64,000 nucleotides of DNA, taken from NCBI RefSeq assembly GCF_029867415.1, contig NW_026705324.1:186001-250000 (forward strand). The letters are read 5' to 3'. The notes below the pieces were generated by a model. The model saw only the letters and a list, made by a program, of their open reading frames with translations. It did no database searches and was not told the origin of the DNA. Shown here one piece after another: positions 6,063 to 6,210 of the stretch; position 1 is the stretch's first letter; every line of letters begins with the position of its first letter. The stretch comes from Vicia villosa (taxonomy: Eukaryota; Streptophyta; Magnoliopsida; Fabales; Fabaceae). A program made the translations under genes and the position numbers.

Positions 6063-6210
6063 TAAACTACCCCTTTCGGGTTTTAAGTCTACCGGGATTG
6101 ATTATTTATTTTTTCATGTCTCTAACTTTTGCCTGAATCGCCCTTTCGGGTTTTCGATTCACCGAGACGCTCTTTTTTGCCTAAGCTGCTCTTTGCGAGT
6201 TTTCAACTTA
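6063..6210 (-). other. Triple hairpin array after pol stop, element A
   Basis: Three units follow the integrase stop on the minus strand. Unit 1 (6210-6182) pairs TAAGTTG with CAGCTTA. Unit 2 (6161-6134) pairs TGAATCG with CGATTCA. Unit 3 (about 6091-6063) pairs TAGACT with AGTTTA. Each has AAAA on the 5' side and an inner CCC/GGG-type stem (CTC/GAG in unit 1) capped by GAAA or GCAAA. Units end in AGGC or similar and a T/A-rich linker. Elements B and C have the same array. Confidence 0.75.

Follow-up and report, generated by a model that had tools for sequence, protein, structure and literature searches.

A stretch of 64,000 nucleotides of the Vicia villosa genome (contig NW_026705324.1, positions 186,001 to 250,000 of the forward strand; hereafter the window) holds three Ogre-type LTR retrotransposons, here called elements A, B and C, each with a set of small tandem hairpins directly behind its pol gene. 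The locus raises the question of whether these hairpins are a selected RNA structure and, if they are, which step in the life of the element they serve. Ogre elements form a large part of several legume genomes, and a structured RNA within them makes testable how the RNA of plant LTR retrotransposons is exported or packaged.

The carriers have the reading frames and domains of Ogre-type elements. The last open pol stretch of element A lies at 6232..8247 on the minus strand, and the 3 kb leading up to its stop encode RNaseH, RVT_3 and integrase domains; that of element B is at 31180..32928 on the plus strand, its stop ending 16 nt before the array, and that of element C, seen as an open reading frame, at 47458..48366 on the minus strand. 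The tail of the B pol shares 95% identity with a Vicia villosa protein. Domains in A and B follow the order RT_RNaseH, RVT_3, Integrase_H2C2, rve, which is that of Ogre/Retand. An extra RNase H between the RNase H and the integrase is a criterion for Ogre (PMC6317226, in excerpt); it is found in A and B, and leaves Ogre and Retand unseparated. By another criterion gag-pro and pol form two ORFs a few hundred bases apart (mean 274), and the gap between the open stretches, measured on reading frames only, is 265 nt in family F0, 230 nt in F7 and 218 nt in F9 (these families of the genome are described below). Element A also has an extra ORF upstream of gag, a place typical of Ogre: this ORF1 spans 14550..15911 on the minus strand and encodes DUF7745 (PF24924, E 4e-130), a name that was not found in a literature text search. 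The visible part of the 3' LTR of A probably occupies 1..3930 on the minus strand, judging from 98-99% identity to 18530-22366, and its edge at 3930 is ~2.1 kb from the array. A 76-bp tandem repeat at 4295-4674 is separate from the hairpins.

As an earlier note on this DNA had claimed, three hairpin units are found just after the pol stop in each of A, B and C, and the sequence places them 15-17 nt 3' of it. By sequence and fold the arrays extend over 6047-6216 (A, minus strand), 32945-33112 (B, plus strand) and 47274-47440 (C, minus strand), and are longer than the 6063-6210, 32951-33096 and 47290-47434 first assigned to them, owing to a basal stem, P1, that had been missed and is seen in unconstrained folds. 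From base to tip the complete unit runs through P1, an internal loop, a 7-bp P2, a 5'-side AAAA bulge that separates P2 from P3, the stem P3 and a cap, and the parts from P2 onward had been recognized before. In the P1-P2 loop the 5' strand contributes two letters (mostly GG or GC, variable) and the 3' strand GGCAAAA(R)UUA, a stretch that is reduced in U1. Unconstrained folds of A, B and C recovered P1, P2 and P3 in each unit, with a P2 of 7 bp that is shortened in B-U1.

In element B, U1 (32945..32992, plus strand) has P1 GCTC/GAGC, P2 TAAGTCG/CTACTTA with one mismatch, the AAAA bulge and a GCAAA cap; U2 (32993..33043, plus strand), with P1 GTCTC/GAGAC, follows U1 with no base between them; and U3 (33062..33112, plus strand), with P1 ATCCT/AGGAT, comes after an A/T-rich spacer. 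On the minus strand, folds and the covariance model place C-U1, C-U2 and C-U3 at 47393..47440, 47342..47392 and 47274..47324, and A-U2 at 6118..6168, between A-U1 (6169..6216), where P3 is CTC/GAG, and A-U3 (6047..6098), where P1 is ATCCC/GGGAT. Over the three elements P1 reads GCTC/GAGC in U1, GTCTC/GAGAC in U2, and ATCCT/AGGAT, ATCCT/GGGAT or ATCCC/GGGAT in U3. The outer-stem pairs listed in the earlier note are present, with pairing that is not perfect everywhere: B-U1 has the mismatch given above, and P2 of A-U3 is TAGACTT/TAGTTTA, followed by CGCAAAAG where GGCAAAAA stands elsewhere. Its CCC-type inner stem was likewise seen, P3 also occurring as CTC/GAG (A-U1) or CCT/GGG. Unpaired letters are nearly constant, with GGCAAAA in the 3' strand of the internal loop, the AAAA bulge and a cap that is mostly GNAA(A), in A, B and C mostly GAAA or GCAAA.

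A covariance model found exactly nine units in the 64-kb window, three per element, at 48-78 bits, with the next best match at 10.9 bits; the model was built from 22 units, some of which are A, B and C units themselves. Folding energy alone is modest evidence for the structure, with z values of -1.85 (B), -3.80 (A) and -2.41 (C), -0.18 for the antisense strand of B, and only -1.17 and -1.48 for two arrays of four units. U1 directly abuts U2 in A, B and C, and among 20 representative arrays with both units parsed there are no bases between abutting units in 18 and one base in two (the second pair was used in four-unit arrays, and three further arrays not parsed in both units were left out).

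The array had been described as kept in three copies. One unit pattern, however, occurs at 4188 places in the 2.03-Gb genome, with none for a reversed control. To sample pol ends blind to the array, we used the pol-end motif D-A-V-K-K-Y-[FY], which occurs at 6127 places (none reversed), and took 30 loci, one of which was not pol; the array was present at 23 of the 29 pol ends and absent from six. A second pol-end search gave 5868 places (126 reversed) and mixes in a repeat that, by its string, was taken to be something other than pol; at all 40 pol-like places chosen among 100 of its hits the array was seen by eye, one of them being read for 101 bases only. The fixed place held throughout: in each of the 63 array-bearing pol ends sampled, 3-25 nt separate the stop from the start of the array.

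Array-bearing elements fall into families with unpaired letters and stem lengths that are nearly constant between them. Three units are found in F1 (which includes B and C), F2 (A), F3-F6 and F12. Four-unit families (F7-F9) have two abutting pairs; their first unit is short and their second is a simple hairpin whose loop is AAAA. F10 (L080) has two units by eye and by a first parser, of which a later parser and the model gave the second only. Depending on the family, the first member of a pair has GCTC/GAGC, ACCC/GGGT or GCCC/GGGC as its P1. In some F1 copies an open stretch of 110-170 codons lies within 699-1250 bases behind the pol end (L039-L066), and in F7 and F9 the gag-pro frame includes a cysteine-rich stretch that is not a CCHC knuckle (L132, L134).

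Pol tails are 64-84% identical between unbroken copies of F1, F2, F3, F7 and F9. When outside proteins were added to a pol-tail tree, F1 grouped with Trifolium subterraneum and Medicago truncatula (support 99), followed by F2 and F3 (93, 100), with F7, F9 and F0 standing apart; the F4 pol L133, which is masked and broken, was included in a first pol-tail tree and left out of this one. Because F1 joins the Trifolium and Medicago pols apart from other array families, the array-bearing families would have parted before the split of Vicia and Medicago, if there was no transfer between species.

The six array-less pol ends, together with two others (L078, L079), form one family, F0, a sister family that has the gag-pro/pol gap and a long 3' region without the array. 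A scan of F0 with the model for a unit remnant found none (best 15.0 bits), and shuffled sequences fold as well as the stretch behind its pol (z +0.30). F0 falls among the array-bearing families in the tree, with support of only 61 and 24, a placement that would mean loss of the array. An 89-base tandem repeat lies ~690-1220 bases behind the F0 pol end (L130, L131). Seven of eight F0 pols (L045, L048, L057, L060, L063, L078, L079) end in UAG, followed by CAA in five, CAG in one and AAA in one, and the eighth (L068) has UAA CAA; the pol stop is UAA in most array families. The UAG CAA at F0 pol ends resembles a stop context known to be leaky.

All arrays shown here come from one plant genome. 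Rfam gave no match at the gathering threshold in the window and none at E<=1 for 32900-33150, nothing was found in viral contigs by protein or pattern search, and three single model matches in contigs of prokaryote genomes, at 13-16 bits, were taken as chance. In the literature on Ogre 3' regions, LTR-retrotransposon RNA structure and export elements, the titles and abstract openings among the matches listed held no published description of the array. The covariance model R1 is a means to look for it elsewhere.

That the array is a selected RNA structure, as first proposed from its paired arms, is supported by three comparisons: pairing against shuffles, pairing against a tree-preserving null, and the balance of G.U and A.C. 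The first used an alignment of 22 units from nine families, whose rows came from parser lists that required pairing, and such parser counts favour structure. In this alignment 96.6% of 298 cells pair, as against 86.4% when shuffled (0 of 500 shuffles reach it), even with U1-type rows misaligned in the 3' arm of P1, which lowered P1 to 89.5%; sliding by one column brings pairing to 49.8% and 50.7%. Ten of its 15 pairs have changed on both sides (1 of 500 shuffles), there are 49 doubly changed cells against 16.0 in shuffles (0 of 500), and further pair types number 18, fewer than in every shuffle (mean 21.3).

Sets of 36, 91 and 113 units had no pairing requirement, and the set of 91 was extracted by unpaired anchors only; one row out of register (L053) was dropped from the two larger sets and another (L147) from the set of 113. 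Among the 91 distinct units 97.3% of cells pair, whereas a null that preserves the tree and each column's substitution count has a mean of 77.8% and a maximum of 88.1% in 600 runs. Fourteen branches change both sides of a pair (null mean 3.9, maximum 10), and nine of 15 pairs have p below 0.03; the doubly changed pairs, 10 of 15 against a null mean of 5.0, only equal the null maximum of 10. With F11 and F12 added (113 units), 96.9% of cells pair (null mean 64.3%, maximum 91.2%), and 10 of 15 pairs have p below 0.05, while the 17 doubly changed branches and 11 of 15 doubly changed pairs both only equal the null maxima (means 9.7 and 6.5).

Maintenance of complementarity at the DNA level would predict similar numbers of G.U and A.C. 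P2 of 36 distinct units has 26 G.U and 4 A.C, and all stems of the 113 distinct units have 134 G.U and 12 A.C, against null means of 255 and 197. The observed ratio of 11.2 compares with a null median of 1.2; a ratio as high arises in one of 600 null runs, and no run has an A.C count as low. This excess suggests that the sense RNA is likely the object of selection, and the folding of B, with z -1.85 for the sense and -0.18 for the antisense strand, points the same way. Gene conversion between the arms, which the earlier note had named as its refuter, does not fit either, since copying from arm to arm would give Watson-Crick pairs, and in one P2 pair the most frequent state is G.U. The paired letters that have changed in step thus mark the array as likely a structure of the sense-strand RNA.

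What such a structure does is indicated best by family F11, a natural experiment in what survives the loss of pol. One locus (L031, G000:C1:16960853-16967800, with L152) has a three-unit array with stems of its own and 44 of 44 pairs intact, behind a pol whose tail aligns at 29-34% amino acid identity with stops and has no blastn match to six other pols tried. A 400-base query made of this array and ~116 bases of the pol remnant identified at least 30 places at 87-100% identity on many contigs (40 scored of 1055 candidates); the remaining ten scored at 73-80%, and the eight of these that were read belong to F12 (five) and F2 (three). In all seven F11 copies read, pol is decayed (best alignment 28-34% amino acid identity, 2-4 stops), and their arrays have 306 of 308 pair cells intact. 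Seventeen pair cells differ from L031, many of them through one change shared by copies, and 15 still pair. Compared with L031, six further copies are 95.3-97.0% identical in the array, 89.9-94.5% in the 1.1 kb of dead pol before it and 88.4-95.5% in the 112 bases after it (gaps not counted), and in each of the six the array exceeds both flanks. One copy read further upstream has crumbs of gag-pro and an open ORF1 of 504 codons, again DUF7745 (422 bits) and 33% identical to ORF1 of element A. Since a dead pol is common to the copies and the arrays are intact, the family likely multiplied after the death of pol and kept the array. Retention of the array in this non-autonomous family most likely reflects action in cis on the RNA that carries it and not expression of pol, which disfavours the role in translating pol suggested in the earlier note.

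Export and packaging are two steps for which retroelements keep cis-acting RNA signals, and export elements of the CTE/RTE type lie 3' of the last gene, ahead of the 3' LTR. We tentatively hypothesize, at a probability of roughly 0.38, that the array is a cis-acting tag with several docking sites for protein, through which the unspliced genomic RNA would be exported from the nucleus in the manner of these elements. Selection would then act on the array RNA through a bound protein, the unpaired letters may be the binding sites, abutting units may stack and bind one complex, and unspliced element RNA so tagged would leave the nucleus. Export is preferred to packaging because known export elements have repeated internal loops and a 3' location, and because Ogre RNA is only partly spliced. 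The same two features are the likeness to the CTE of MPMV/SRV and the RTE of mouse IAP, retroelements that export unspliced RNA: the folds and covariation show structured, repeated internal-loop modules in the array, and it lies behind the last large gene. The likeness is drawn from architecture, and the array has a plant host without a known receptor.

Structured RNA with repeated internal loops is described for retroelement export elements in PMC7551171 (in excerpt), where the CTE is a single long stem-loop containing two internal loops, unlike the two to four separate hairpins of the array. Partial splicing of Ogre RNA is taken from PMC6317226 (same excerpt as above), and the passages available of a 2025 review (PMC12786077) state that there is no direct study of RNA export in plant LTR retrotransposons. 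An export tag of this type should be present in every carrier that keeps the intron, and F0, with the gap and without the array, is one exception family. As F0 also has a long 3' region, an Ogre can evidently do without the array, which counts against its being indispensable.

Packaging is a close rival, possible though somewhat doubtful in our judgement: Ogre Gag would pick RNA into particles by way of the array, and F11 would keep the array for packaging by a helper. Retroviral psi, normally placed at the 5' end, is a set of tandem hairpins that present unpaired G; it is required in cis, and non-autonomous elements retain it. The array shares the tandem hairpins with unpaired G and A, as well as its retention in F11, a family without working pol and, in the one copy read upstream, with mere crumbs of gag-pro, which is what packaging predicts. 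F11 may not need the Ogre intron, so that packaging explains this family equally well, and the back-to-back units suit an oligomeric protein. The array, however, is at the 3' end, unlike psi, and would be present in spliced and unspliced RNA alike. Searched by regular expression, the gag or gag-pro sequences from A, F0, F7 and F9 gave no CCHC zinc knuckle, though those of F0, F7 and F9 may lack part of gag, other RNA-binding folds being possible; and F0 again does without the array.

On another reading, which we consider unlikely, the array and the element's own ORF1 (DUF7745) would be the plant counterpart of Rev/RRE. ORF1 would bind the abutting hairpins and take the RNA through export and into particles. 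Such a pair would explain the F11 copy in which gag, pro and pol are lost, the 504-codon ORF1 is open and the array is intact.

Protection from nonsense-mediated decay, or an aid to termination, is less probable again. The array would stand beside the terminating ribosome and protect an RNA with a long 3' UTR, for which its position within 25 nt of the stop at every array-bearing end sampled and the ~2.1 kb that follow in A are suitable. It shares with the RSV RNA stability element and plant-virus post-stop elements that it is a cis RNA element directly behind a stop codon; viral elements at this place can protect RNA (PMC2925335, PMC5580461, PMC6277124, all in excerpt), as can a readthrough structure at a stop (PMC6277124, in excerpt). 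Two observations on the elements argue against such a shield: F11 keeps the array though its pol frame is dead, and F0 has a long 3' region without it. In addition, in the plant assay reported in the excerpt of PMC6277124, it was an unstructured region behind the stop that protected, and a stable hairpin there abolished protection.

We regard it as very improbable that the array has no RNA function, being a recent tandem duplication in which complementarity of the arms came from gene conversion or from a role of the DNA (a cruciform or a protein-binding palindrome). The units are indeed repeats of one another, and Ogre 3' regions are known for tandem repeats (PMC7004042, in excerpt), with which the array shares its place between pol and 3' LTR of the same elements. 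Those repeats, however, are described there as hypervariable in sequence and length, whereas structure and letters of the array are kept across families. Stems diverge while loops stay, one architecture persists across families that differ by up to 36% of amino acids in their pol tails, and the preponderance of G.U over A.C in distinct units, about 11 to 1, is not predicted by pairing at the DNA level. A long region between pol and 3' LTR is also reported for the sister lineage Retand, there with antisense TRP28 ORFs and tandem repeats (PMC11963269, in excerpt), and the words 'hairpin' and 'secondary structure' are absent from the text of PMC7004042 and PMC11963269 that was available.

Least probable of all, and by our estimate hardly credible, would be a translation element, by which ribosomes would enter internally or reinitiate to translate a gene 3' of pol, or would read through the stop. 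Open stretches of 154 (B) and 172 (C) codons do lie downstream of the array, and one that begins 699-814 nt past the end of pol and runs for at least 110 codons is seen in eight of the 15 F1 copies, but it is absent there in the other seven, 167 of 180 indels among 14 aligned F1 copies are not multiples of three, and substitutions at codon positions 1, 2 and 3 (122, 111 and 163) complete a pattern that looks noncoding, while for readthrough the stops are mostly UAA and F11 has no pol that could be read through.

Two other candidates were rejected. A terminator does not suit the array, whose U-rich side is on the antisense strand and whose hairpins are not followed by a run of T. Folds of the poly(A)-binding ENE type have their U-rich loops on the sense strand, and the U-rich side of the array is on the other.

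Beside the three elements, the window has two sets of direct repeats. A 1.9-kb repeat (99% identity) at 22906-24794 and 27892-29780 is LTR-like, as of a younger element; it ends just before the pol similarity of B and is related to 41371-42210 near C. A second pair, at 51191-52093 and 62230-64000, is 85-92% identical.
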